Shown here piece after piece: positions 50,365-64,000 of a stretch of 64,000 nt of DNA. Origin of the DNA: Hirudinaria manillensis (lineage: Eukaryota > Annelida > Clitellata > Hirudinida > Hirudinidae); contig CM067528.1 in the NCBI GenBank assembly GCA_034509925.1, forward strand, positions 4,209,001 through 4,273,000, written 5' to 3'. Both the position numbers and the translations under genes were made by a program. The notes beneath the pieces were generated by a model, which was not told where the DNA came from, ran no database searches, and was given only the letters and a program-made list of their open reading frames with translations. Position 1 is the stretch's first letter, and each line of letters opens with the position of its first letter.

Positions 50365-53300
50365 ATGATTTGGAAAAATATTGCTAAATGTCGCGCTGGA
50401 CTCGCTTTAATTGTGCTGTCCCTTTTTACAAGTCCGAGTATCTGTGATTTAACAGGTAATTGCTTTTGAGTTTCGTTAATAGACAATCTTTGTCTTTACT
50501 TGAGATTTTAATTTTAAAGATCATCCTTTTTTAAAAATAAATTTCGCAATTATCTGATTTTTAAGCTTGTAAGATCAGCACTTGGAAAATATGTTACGTA
50601 TCTTATGTTACTTTGTGTCTTCAGTCGTAATACCTAAAACATTCATAACCTTACAATGATAATTTAAATGTTACTAATAGTTATTATTACCAATTTTTAC
50701 TTTACGAAACGATGATGTTATTATTATTTCTTCACTTGGCTATGCTATGTACCAAATTATGGTTATCTCTTAAATCTAACAACTTTGACTGCATGAACTG
50801 CATTTTACAGTTAAAAATTTAACCTATTTATAAATTATATTTCATTACTTAGGAATGACATACATTAAACAATGATCAGTAAAACATTACAGACGAGTTT
50901 TAATTAAATGAAACATTTAACATGAAATGACATTATTTGACTGAATTTTACTCGTTTTCAGTTTTACACCCGACCAACGTGAGCTACGGTGAGTCTTTAG
51001 AGACAAAAATTGTTTTCAGTACTTATATTGTATTTAAATTATTTGTGTTTAACATTTAGAAGAATATTTTGCGTATTTTAATTTATTAATTAATATTTGC
51101 CTTAAAAATTTAGGCAAGGGTCTGGTTTTCTCAGCTCGATACGATCCGGGATATTTTGGGAACAATGTCGTGCTGGGTTCTGCCGAGATATCGAAGTTAG
51201 GGAGGAGATCGTGGGTCGACTTAGTTACAATATTGCCAACTGGCATCGTCAAAGCATTCTTTATTTACACCACAAATTCTAATTATTCACTGAGCGAACT
51301 GGACAAAAGAATCAGACTCCAAATTTGGAGACCCGAAAATCTTACCGTTCCGGCGCTATCTCTAGTCTATCAACAGCTCGTTGAAATTCAACCATCGCCA
51401 GGAACGGGGGCTTTTTGCACAGTAAGATGGCAATTTAACATCGTTTACTTGTGATTTCTAAAAATTCGGCTTTATTCACATTTAATATTTTCGTACAGTT
51501 CAGGCTAAAAGATGTTGCTCAAACCCTGGCTGGGGATAGAATTGGATGGACTTACGAAGGAGAATATGGCGTCATCAGCTTCGATTACGTCCAAGGGCAC
51601 ATCACCCACTACGTAGAAATTAATACTGGATTACCAGATATTGGTTCTACTGTGATCTTCCAGTCCATTCCACTACCTGCCGCTTTCTCAATTGCCGTAG
51701 AAATGGATTTAAGTTAGTCAATAATAATTCGATAGATCGAAATCTTTTACAATAATAATTACATGTTATTACAACTGAAATATTTAGCTATGTATGGCAT
51801 CCCCGGTTTCAGCGGCCCAGACGGATCAACCGGAGCCACCGGAACAACGGGTTTAGAAGGAGAACCTGGTAAGTGTGTTACATAGGATCTATCACAAAGA
51901 ATGATCACCGATATGTGAAAAAATTCTGTTTTAGGAATGAATGGACCACTCGGAGCCACAGGCCAAGCTGGCCCTGGCGGAACTGGCTTTACCGGTCAGA
52001 GAGGTCCTTTGGGTCCATCAGGGCAATCCGGCGATACAGGTCCTACGGGGATTCCCGGTCTAAAGGGATGGACGGGCAGTTTTGGTTCTCCTGGTTCGGC
52101 GGGATCAAACGGAGCCACCGGCCTTCCAGGCGATAAAGGTGTTCAGGGACAAATGGGCGCAACTGGTCCAACAGGTCCTCCTGGGCCAACTGGAAATGGT
52201 GCTGGAATCGGTGGCACTGGAAACACTGGAGAAAGAGGAGGTACAGGCGAAACGGGCCAACCTGGAATCCAAGGTACAATGGGATTTACTGGAGCGACAG
52301 GAAGTACCGGACCAACTGGAATAATTGGCGTGCCCGGATCTACTGGATTTAGCGGAAATGTTGGGGCAACTGGAAGCCCCGGTTCCACAGGACCTCAGGG
52401 GTCAACCGGCCAAATTGGCCCTCAAGGAAATGACGGATCGAGAGGCCTGATAGGGATGAAGGGGGCAACCGGTAAAACTGGCCCCAGAGGGTCCCCAGGA
52501 CCACCTGCATCCGGATTTCCTGGAGTAGATATCCCTGGAAGATCCGGTGTCCCGGGTGCAACTGGACTAACAGGTTCTTTAGGTACTAGCGGTTTAAATG
52601 GAGTTAAAGGTCTTTCGGGTTCTCAAGGAAGTACTGGTGCATCCGGTGCAAAGGGTGAAACAGGATTTAAGGGGTCAATAGGAGAAATTGGTCCTACGGG
52701 ATTCACCGGGCCGAAAGGAACTCCTGGAGAAATTGGAGCCACCGGTTTGGATGGATTTCCAGGTGTTAAAGGTCCAACTGGAGATCAGGGTCCACAAGGT
52801 CCACCGGGACCCCCTGGAGAGAATGGAGATGGTTTTCTGGGAGCAACTGGTGCAACCGGTCAACAAGGTGCTACAGGCACCTCGGGATCAATTGGAAATA
52901 AAGGCTTAACGGGAGTAACCGGTTTAGTTGGGGGAGTCGGAGCTACCGGTAGTACTGGCGATTCGGGAATTGCTGGTCGAACAGGTGTACCTGGATTCAC
53001 TGGAGAAACTGGATTTACAGGGTATTCAGGTACCATGTCTATTGAATTGTACAAACATAATGAATGGACATCCAATATGTATAGACAGTATTTAGAGCCG
53101 CATCATGGATCATGTTGCGAATTATTTTAATATAATAATATTATATTAAGTTTTGATCATTTTATTTGTCTTTGATTAATAATGTTTGCATTATTATAAG
53201 TGAAACCCACTTGTAAAAATAAGCCCCAGTAAAAATGTTGAATTTATAGGTTTCGAAGGCATACAGGGAAAGTCAGGAGTGACAGGTGATACGGGAGTAA

Positions 53301-62300: not shown

Positions 62301-64000
62301 GACCTTCAGGGGCAACTGGAATTACAGGAAACACAGGAGCAACTGGAAGTGTGGGCTTTACTGGAAATGCAGGTCAAACTGGAGCTAATGGCAACAGTGG
62401 TATTCAGGGAGAGCAAGGTTACACTGGCAACCAAGGAACTTCTGGGATTTTTGGTGGCACTGGAGATACCGGCGCAACAGGTGTGAAAGGAGGTACCGGA
62501 ATAAGTGGCTCACCAGGAACACCGGGGCAGAAAGGACCATCTGGATTTCCTGGGCAAAGTGGAAACCAAGGAAGCAATGGAATATCCGGCATTACAGGTT
62601 TCACTGGACCAACTGGTCAAACGGGCATTTCAGGTGAGGTTGGAGTCACGGGATCCACAGGTGCTGCTGGAGCAACCGGAGCATCTGGATCACAAGGCGA
62701 TGCAGGATCCACCGGTTTTACTGGCTTACCCGGTTTTACTGGTCCCACTGGAGCCACTGGTGAAGCCGGTGAAACCGGTATGACTGGTCGTCCTGGAATG
62801 ACTGGTCAACAGGGATTTACTGGAAATACTGGAATGCCTGGATTCGTTGGATCTACTGGAGAAACTGGTAAATTAGTTTTAAGTCTTAAATCCGAAATTC
62901 TGTGATTCATTTGGTTCACTGTTTTCTAGCTATCATTATTTTCTAACAATATTTTCCATTATCTACCAAAAATTCTTTACATGACAATCTCAGGCATTCC
63001 TGGACCACAAGGTGGCGGAGGAGAAGTAGGAGACGTTGGTTATACCGGATCAACAGGTTCATCAGGTTTTACAGGGTCAACAGGTTCTAGTGGGTTGACG
63101 GGAAACACCGGTGCTTCTGGCGCTATCGGTTTTACAGGAATCACAGGAGCATATGGAAGTGAAGGTGAAGTTGGTATTAGTGGAACGGCCGGTTTTCAAG
63201 GAATAACTGGAAGTACAGGCAATACAGGCACAAGAGGCACATTTGGGGCAACTGGCTCCACCGGACCTCTAGGTAGACAAGGATTATCCGGAATTAACGG
63301 AGCTTCAGGAGTTAGAGGCAATCAAGGCAACACTGGAGCACCAGGTGTTACTGGTGCTACAGGTCTTCCTGGGTCGAGTGGATCTTTTGGTGCCACAGGC
63401 AACACGGGTTCTTCTGGAAACACGGGAAGTACTGGTGCAACGGGATTATCCGGCACAATTGGCGCTAGTGGTCTTGTGGGACCTCGAGGAGTGGTTGGAC
63501 TTTCGGGGTCTTCTGGTGGATCTGGATCGCAAGGAGCAGTTGGCATTCCTGGATCTCTTGGTCAGCACGGTTCAAAAGGTGACCCTGGTTTTACAGGAGA
63601 TCCTGGAAATGAAGGTGGTACGGGTTTTACTGGATTTACGGGCTCGAGTGGATTAAAAGGACCATCAGGAACAGTTGGAAATAGTGGTTCTCCAGGTGTT
63701 GATGGAGTGCGAGGTGCAACTGGAAGCACCGGACGTTCGGGTTTAACGGGTGCTTCAGGCGTTCCAGGTGTGACGGGAGCCACAGGTAATATTCTAAAAT
63801 AAGAGATTGCACAGGCACTGATGTTATTTGGAAATTCATACTTGTTATAGGAAATGCTGGCTCACTTGGTGGAACAGGCGCGACTGGAGAAAGTGGACTT
63901 ACTGGATCTACGGGTATAACAGGGGAACAGGGCAATACCGGATTTACGGGTGCAACAGGTGTCTTTGGTCAAACCGGCACACGAGGTGCTACAGGTGCCA
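50365..64000 (+). CDS. Giant secreted Gly-X-Thr collagen-like protein (3' end beyond window)
   Basis: Predicted extracellular matrix protein. Non-collagen exons: 50365-50455 (signal peptide, [15 protein letters not shown]), 50962-50988, 51114-51421, 51499-51712. Collagenous exons: 51788-51868, 51935-53029, 53250-54878, 54974-55882, 55959-56399, 56708-57139, 57289-57693, 58008-58592, 58720-59268, 59405-59620, 59682-60086, 60403-60564, 60625-61110, 61208-61549, 61608-61796, 62022-62867, 62994-63785, 63851-64000+. All join in phase, to about 3,450 residues so far. The N-terminal part ([33 protein letters not shown]) looks like a beta-sandwich unit. It is followed by more than 1,000 Gly-X-Y triplets, mostly unbroken, rich in [12 protein letters not shown] and GST with few charged residues. 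In 36 consecutive triplets from 53249, Thr fills Y in 15 and Pro in 6. Identity to a named gene is unknown. Confidence 0.9.
51114..51712 (+). other. N-terminal non-collagenous domain of the collagen-like protein
   Basis: Two exons (51114-51421 and 51499-51712) encode about 174 residues with alternating hydrophobic strands and a single Cys (GAFCT) just before the intron. Patterns such as [54 protein letters not shown] and a late hydrophobic strand suggest a jelly-roll or galactose-binding-like beta sandwich of the kind that starts many secreted mosaic proteins. I recognise no named family. It may be the chain-selection or anchoring domain. Confidence 0.55.
54879..54880 (+). other. GC splice donor (GC-AG intron) in the collagen-like gene
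   Basis: The exon ends CCAG and is followed by GCATGC. Only a donor here keeps the phase-1 split Gly codon (G|GA with the exon at 54974) and the exact 9-nt register shared by the neighbouring exons. The alternative GT at 54887 would break both. Confidence 0.65.

Follow-up and report, generated by a model that had tools for sequence, protein, structure and literature searches.

We analysed a window of 64,000 bases (bases 4,209,001–4,273,000 of contig C3, which spans 13.7 Mb in a genome of 148.4 Mb and 23 contigs) and describe here gene A, a collagen gene on its forward strand whose Gly-X-Y helix is dominated at the Y position by threonine (Thr). The splice model was obtained by dynamic programming in which Gly at every third codon was rewarded, stops were penalised and GT..AG introns were required, with no preference for intron phase. 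This returned a single collagen chain across 51.8–70.4 kb (window numbering, also used for positions past the window end), and flanking exons were added according to frame and splice score. The final model starts with an ATG at 50,365, reaches its stop past the window end, at 71,561, and comprises 30 exons encoding 5,649 amino acids; the joined exons are free of stops until the single terminal one. The first-pass model places 22 of its 23 introns behind the first base of a Gly codon, the odd one out being the junction to a spurious 5-base first exon; in the final model all 20 helix-internal introns have this position (19 from the phase-neutral model, 1 added). An earlier note on this DNA had placed a collagen of over 1,000 triplets at 51788..64000. 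The triplet count was confirmed, since the helix-coding sequence inside the window amounts to 9,651 bases (1,072 triplets), and the start is exactly the splice acceptor of the first collagen exon, but the interval covers only part of the gene.

Exon 1 (50365–50455; donor score 3.5, phase 1) carries the start codon and a signal-like peptide with a hydrophobic core, exon 2 (50962–50988; acceptor 2.4, donor 4.5) an N-terminal linker, and exons 3 (51114–51421) and 4 (51499–51712) the two parts of an N-terminal domain. The helix opens with the first Gly-X-Y triplets at 51788–51868 and proceeds through an exon that contains helix interruptions (51935–53029, where two weak first-pass introns are read through in the final model), followed by exons at 53250–54815, 54974–55882, 55959–56399, 56708–57139, 57289–57693, 58008–58592, 58720–59268, 59405–59620, 59682–60086, 60403–60564, 60625–61110, 61208–61549, 61608–61796, 62022–62867 and 62994–63785. 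The window end cuts the next helix exon (63851–64000, continuing to 66,019). Beyond it, the helix occupies 66090–67331, 67395–69059 and 69481–70443, ending within the last of these; four Cys-rich EGF-like exons follow at 70511–71275, and a hydrophobic span, a short tail and the stop at 71335–71561.

The predicted protein thus consists of a signal-like peptide (called from hydropathy only), a domain of ~175 amino acids, the helix, EGF-like repeats, one hydrophobic span and a short tail. The helix, which matches the Pfam Collagen family, comprises residues 217–5,382 (5,166 residues, 1,719 triplets), with interruptions confined to its first ~330 residues; at the collagen rise of 0.286 nm per residue it would measure ~1.48 µm. 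Windows of 19 residues with a hydropathy above 1.6 occur only at the start and in the C-terminal span, whose mean is 3.05. The N-terminal domain was without significant match in Pfam, NCBIfam or PDB, and the C-terminal segment matched EGF-type families (PF14670, 2.9e-18; PF12662, 2.8e-8; PF07645, 4e-6), with neither COLFI nor C4 (NC1) in a Pfam scan at E values up to 1. In its very long, nearly uninterrupted Gly-X-Y helix, and in having Thr and not Pro as the leading Y residue, gene A resembles annelid cuticle collagen. Its predicted topology, with a signal-like N-terminus and the other hydrophobic segment at the C-terminus, differs from the N-terminal cytoplasmic domain and span of membrane-associated collagens with interrupted triple helices (MACITs), and its 30 modelled exons on a 13.7 Mb contig differ from an intron-free bacterial or phage collagen-like gene.

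Six giant collagen genes in two trios

A family search revealed at least six giant collagen loci, which we divided into class I, containing gene A, E (C1:11.15 Mb) and F (C2:5.9 Mb), and class II, containing B (C3:9.66 Mb), C (C9:5.85 Mb) and D (C5:3.9 Mb). The N-terminal domain of A was clearly found in E (exon 3, 6.8e-8; exon 4, 2.1e-8) and weakly in F, where only the first part matched (0.0067) and the second half, unmatched in the sequence search, was chosen by eye for alignment. The counterpart of exon 1 is alike in F (donor 3.8, phase 1), whereas E offers a weaker candidate (donor 0.6, phase 1). EGF-type matches occur in A, E and F alike; in class II, B (3e-8) and D (5.1e-26) have a VWA domain ahead of the helix. 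The class I helices are of nearly equal length (5,166 residues in the final model of A, 5,116–5,119 in E, 5,071–5,110 in F), as are those of B, C and D (8,557, 8,368 and 8,548 residues in one model; 8,569, 8,431 and 8,506 in a second), which would extend to ~2.45 µm at the same rise. The share of Thr at Y is 36.2% in A, 38.6% in E and 40.8% in F, compared with 25.2% in B, 27.4% in C and 29.9% in D.

All six giants carry a terminal hydrophobic span (Kyte-Doolittle 1.93–3.26), which in class II directly follows the helix, and we read it as a putative membrane anchor. There is an appreciable chance, which we put at somewhat under even, that this segment is instead a removable sorting or trimerisation piece and that secretion of the mature collagen is complete. 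In line with secretion, annelid cuticle collagen takes the form, when isolated, of a free rod bearing a globular end, yet an R-x-x-R site precedes the span in only one of the six chains (F); shedding by proteases of another type is possible.

Shared exon grids and threonine phasing

Global triplet alignment of the six helices was tried with two gap settings and rejected: identity was near that of shuffled sequences, and stiffer gaps gave scores at most modestly above them. Pairs were therefore aligned via equal exon lengths instead. Between A and E, a stretch selected by comparing exon sums has equal length over 1,315 triplets (starting in A with exon 54974–55882), in which 14 of the 16 internal boundaries of A coincide with one of the 26 in E. 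Residue identity over these triplets was 7.9% at X (8.9% expected from composition) and 16.9% at Y (18.9% expected). F matches this grid by simple concatenation up to coordinate 569; beyond it, one 63-base exon was omitted, two exons were placed by fitting their end to that of A, and one exon falls 2 triplets short. B and D, with 61 and 60 exons, have 42 exon lengths in common in the same order (null maximum 20, 300 shuffles), and single exon lengths shared above shuffles were also found for B–C (20, null maximum 15), C–D (19, 15) and A–F (10, 8). Over 2,132 triplets, B and D agree in 13.8% of X residues and 17.5% of Y residues, where 10.4% and 15.3% are expected; this is only slightly more than in shifted controls, and Thr–Thr coincidence at offset 0 was at the expected level (observed/expected 1.0). 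Near-equal length without residue identity is what in-register co-assembly would demand. Across the six chains the exon grid, the near-equal length, the Thr content and the class II Thr phase were kept, and the residues themselves were lost; this suggests that stabilisation and surface patterning may be achieved by composition, not by motif.

We then examined residue periodicity, for which nine features were viewed per chain and thirteen were tested against surrogates. Thr at Y in class II recurs with a period of 8.75 triplets in B, 9.10 in C and 9.00 in D (z 7.6, 8.9 and 9.0, each above all 300 block-shuffled surrogates), and the pooled autocorrelation peaks at lags of 8–9, 18, 26, 35, 44 and 53–55 triplets. 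Besides Thr at Y, Ala at X exceeded all surrogates; Pro at Y, basic Y, acidic X and aliphatic X reached the 95% level only. Using exon-matched blocks (2,178 triplets for B–D, 1,804 for B–C and 1,400 for C–D, of about 2,800), Thr coincidence between chains peaked at −3 from B to D (z 7.2), +2 from B to C (5.3) and +2 from C to D (7.4), and not at offset 0 (z 0.1, 1.5 and 1.6). The fitted phase amplitudes for B–D, B–C and C–D were each reached by 0 of 400 rolled nulls, and the phases agree in both halves of the chains. Cross-chain phases of Ala at X agree with those of Thr, though mostly without significance (reached by 15, 95 and 170 of 400 nulls).

A left-handed unit twist combined with a rise of one residue carries each chain of a collagen helix onto its neighbour. 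If Thr is to remain on one face of a helix with p triplets per turn, the offset is (p − 1)/3 from the leading to the middle and from the middle to the trailing chain, and (p + 2)/3 from the trailing back to the leading chain. At p = 8.95 this predicts 2.65, 2.65 and 3.65 triplets; the measured offsets (bootstrap) were 2.67 (standard deviation 0.25) for B to C, 2.73 (0.20) for C to D and 3.70 (0.19) for D to B, an excess for D to B of 1.00 ± 0.25 where 1.00 is expected. The register B-C-D scored 1.78, its cyclic relatives 1.51 and 1.50, and reversed orders or no stagger below 0; it was picked in 497 of 500 bootstraps, with a best p of 8.65 in that fit. Over 16 settings (two models, single-exon or merged blocks, p 8.5–9.1) the offsets ranged over 2.45–2.72 for B–C, 2.60–3.11 for C–D and 3.50–3.85 for D–B, the last always being the largest, and mispairing the blocks lowered the amplitude in 30 of 30 cases. 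The Thr period falls between the 7 triplets of 7/2 symmetry and the 10 of 10/3 symmetry, which, like the leading, middle and trailing stagger, are described in passages of PMC13138384 and PMC5126661.

In class I, E is the sole chain with a significant Thr period of its own (8.50 triplets, z 5.2, null maximum 5.1), and pooled Thr at Y, with a period of 8.60 (z 4.4 vs a null maximum of 4.3), is the only feature beyond all surrogates. Across A, E and F, Thr at Y shuns the same level in the other chains (z sum −15.9, against a null mean of −1.0 and minimum of −12.3; 0 of 1,000 nulls), and the joint register scan, which selected p 7.8 and the order E-A-F, was matched by 1 of 1,000 nulls. We regard these sequence patterns as good evidence for an evolution of A, E and F as partners; for their putative chain order the evidence is weak. 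Phe or Tyr at X, pooled over class I, shows a spectral peak near 26 triplets (z 6.2), roughly three times the Thr period, with power under the null 95% level and therefore unproven.

An unlikely alternative is that each gene forms homotrimers and that ancestry or a constraint at the DNA level accounts for the exon grids and the Thr phasing. Paralogues do inherit exon structure by descent, the case for co-assembly comes from sequence patterns, and Pro at Y in class II, unlike Thr, coincides across chains at offset 0 or ±1 (z 3.4–6.2), which may be either remnant homology or in-register stabilising knots. Ancestry, however, predicts that Thr coincides at offset 0, whereas the peaks sit 2–3 triplets off; the same-level Thr correlation in class I is negative; and the class II offsets fit the screw geometry and fade in mispaired blocks.

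Composition of the helix and genomic setting

Composition was determined over 1,715 strict triplets of gene A; the remainder of its 1,719 adjoin interruptions and were dropped. Thr is the commonest residue at Y (620 of 1,715), followed by Ser (14.9%), Pro (12.5%) and Gln (6.6%); at X, the commonest are Ser (15.7%), Ala (13.6%), Phe (9.3%) and Pro (9.0%). Only 65 Thr lie at X (Fisher p 4.9e-139), and the most frequent triplets were GAT (130), GFT (95), GST (90) and GNT (56). As controls we took runs of at least 7 Gly-X-Y triplets in the four non-giant loci (L001, L002, L004 and L005) among eight extracted from the same genome, 435 triplets in all. L002 and L004, 2.5 kb apart, are probably one gene, and the control loci were top Pfam scorers, which may bias them towards Pro-rich stretches. 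In these controls Thr at Y was rare (12 of 435, 2.8%), indicating that the high Thr of gene A is not a genome-wide bias; Pro at Y reached 38.2%, Phe at X 5.1% and charged residues 29.4%, the last compared with 9.7% in gene A. Within gene A, triplets with Thr at both X and Y are strongly avoided (5 observed, 23.5 expected), and Thr at Y goes preferentially with Tyr, Phe or Ala at X.

Drift in codon use or composition, with no glycosylation involved, is an improbable source of the high Thr content. Thr sites are not conserved in position between paralogues, as the B–D coincidence at offset 0 illustrates and as drift would allow, but Thr is confined to Y, is rare at Y in the control collagens and is arranged in phased stripes, which drift does not produce. 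It is very improbable that gene A codes for an ordinary secreted collagen, of the fibrillar or basement-membrane kind, with an odd composition: it has the Pfam Collagen match and the genome does contain ordinary collagens (the control fragments), yet EGF-type families and a hydrophobic span stand where COLFI or C4 would be listed, Pro at Y and charged residues fall far below the controls, and the helix is several times the length of a fibrillar one, which is about 1,000 residues.

Two matches to the GT25 collagen galactosyltransferase family, both at a single locus, were found, the better one at 5.5e-4, and on this basis we propose no Thr-modifying enzyme. The prolyl 4-hydroxylase N-domain matched at four loci, fitting the possibility that ordinary collagens are retained alongside the giants.

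We read the genome as leech-like. The erythrocruorin linker PF16915, which we take to be an annelid (or annelid-specific) family, gave 8 matches, 7 above cut-off, in a family search, and the antistasin family, whose expansion is typical of leeches, gave at least 63 (150 of 162 candidates scored), including a dense cluster of antistasin domains at C2:1.72–1.78 Mb. Both families had 0 matches in 14 control genomes, of which the three named ones are bacteria, so that other animals are not covered by this comparison. The annelid origin and ultra-long helix that the earlier note had proposed were thus supported, as was the predominance of Thr at Y over the whole modelled helix, at a level slightly below the 42% (15 of 36) of its sample; the C-terminal EGF-like and hydrophobic segments and the five sister genes lay outside its view.

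Elsewhere in the window, the closest recognised gene upstream of gene A is an OATP-family transporter, with exons at 45866–47687 on the reverse strand (PF03137, 5.9e-31 and 7.3e-11). A Ty3/gypsy-like element at 39872–43197 on the forward strand carries a retroviral-type aspartyl protease (5.8e-9), an integrase match under the curated cut-off (3.6e-4) and stretches that by eye are reverse-transcriptase-like, and exons of an ion channel lie at 19560–20521 on the reverse strand (PF00520, 1.1e-14 and 1.4e-13).

Proposed assembly and relation to known collagens

We think it likely that the product of gene A is one chain of a giant annelid (leech) collagen with Thr in Y, a type I membrane protein that would form a heterotrimer with the products of E and F, and that B, C and D form a second heterotrimer. 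In the proposed mechanism, the molecule would have a signal peptide, an N-terminal domain outside the cell, a triple helix of ~1.5 µm, EGF-like repeats, one membrane span and a short cytoplasmic tail. Three chains, for A most likely together with those of E and F, would enter the membrane of the endoplasmic reticulum and meet at the C-terminal stalk and span; stalk and membrane would hold the register while the helix zips N-wards. Thr at Y, most likely O-glycosylated, would take over the role of hydroxyproline as bulk stabiliser, and the N-terminal domain would reach outward, the molecule tethering the epidermis to its coat. For the class II chains we lean, from the phase data, towards an obligate heterotrimer of ~2.45 µm in which B leads, C lies in the middle and D trails, with ~8.7–9 triplets per turn (~40 degrees per triplet) and Thr side chains, probably as a stripe of sugars, along one face of what would be a two-faced collagen, and towards an A/E/F sister trimer tethered C-terminally to the epidermal membrane; Thr would stay on one face of the rope by switching chain every third of a turn.

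Several observations weigh against this reading. In class I, neither A (z 3.3 vs a null 95% level of 3.9) nor F (3.1 vs 4.1) has a significant Thr period alone, pairwise phases are not significant (reached by 79, 182 and 31 of 400 nulls), and the register scan prefers its p of 7.8 to a value of ~8.9. The class II period fades past ~60 triplets, with best values of 9.85 (lags 30–60) and 12.05 (60–100), which points either to a twist that is not strictly constant or to slippage in the gene models. The one-triplet asymmetry was derived after the first phases had been seen and is post hoc, although p is its only free parameter. Shared single exon lengths for A–E (7, null maximum 9) and E–F (6, 7) are not beyond chance, the grid of these two pairs being visible only after adjacent exons are merged; outside the 1,315 triplets A deviates, with an exon of 1566 against 1629 in E and F. 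No VWA domain was found for C, where a Pfam scan of a presumed segment ahead of the helix was empty. The 15 residues after the span have a net charge of 0 in A and C, which leaves the positive-inside pattern clear in just four chains (B, D, E and F). Finally, some junctions scored poorly (EGF to span in E, 1.8; helix to EGF, −1.2, and EGF1 to EGF2, −0.2, in F), as did the acceptors of the D span (−1.0) and the B helix start (−0.9).

Isolated annelid cuticle collagen is ~2.4 µm long, so that A, at ~1.5 µm, would be shorter, and the sister chains of ~8,500 residues fit this length better. The stability of the cuticle collagen of Riftia pachyptila has been credited to glycosylated Thr (Mann et al. 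1996, as cited in PMC11766948 and PMC6953826). Like A, it is an annelid collagen with a very long helix; the membrane span, EGF-like repeats and three-gene trios of the leech go unmentioned for Riftia in the relevant passages of these two papers. Alvinellid collagens of 7,719–8,859 amino acids, the size of our class II, and an Eisenia collagen with a similar repeat count are reported in the giant-collagen section of PMC12403961, which adds that no siboglinid prediction reaches such length. These giants are Pro-rich, with Pro at X in 33–40% and at Y in 22–33% of triplets in the five giant rows of its Table 1, whereas the six leech chains have 9–13% at X and 10–20% at Y; Thr, membrane segments and register are untreated in that section. 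Giant Pro-rich annelid collagens of up to 8,859 amino acids (there reported) and a Thr-type cuticle collagen were already known.

The MACITs XIII, XXIII and XXV share with A a membrane-tethered collagen ectodomain, but according to passages of PMC4678570 they are type II proteins (N-terminus inside) with interrupted helices, not found in Annelida, and the span of A is C-terminal instead. In type IX collagen, the NC2 domain sets the register of a heterotrimer as a folded domain, as crystallography established (PMC5126661, in the part dealing with it); there, as proposed for B/C/D, the chains are leading, middle and trailing, while the leech register is derived from the phasing of residues within the helix itself. 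The same source, in 2016, called the question of a single register per collagen still somewhat unresolved, and a passage of PMC13138384 gives the native helix twist as 7/2 or 10/3, depending on imino content. In the open-licence literature we found no leech giant collagen, no C-terminally anchored annelid collagen, no two exon-grid trios and no register derived from Thr phase.

For a natural collagen of ~8,500 residues, sequence patterns thus yield candidates for its composition, its register and its twist. If the proposed topology is true, a micrometre-long collagen anchored in the membrane by its C-terminus would attach an extracellular coat to an epithelium in an unusual manner.

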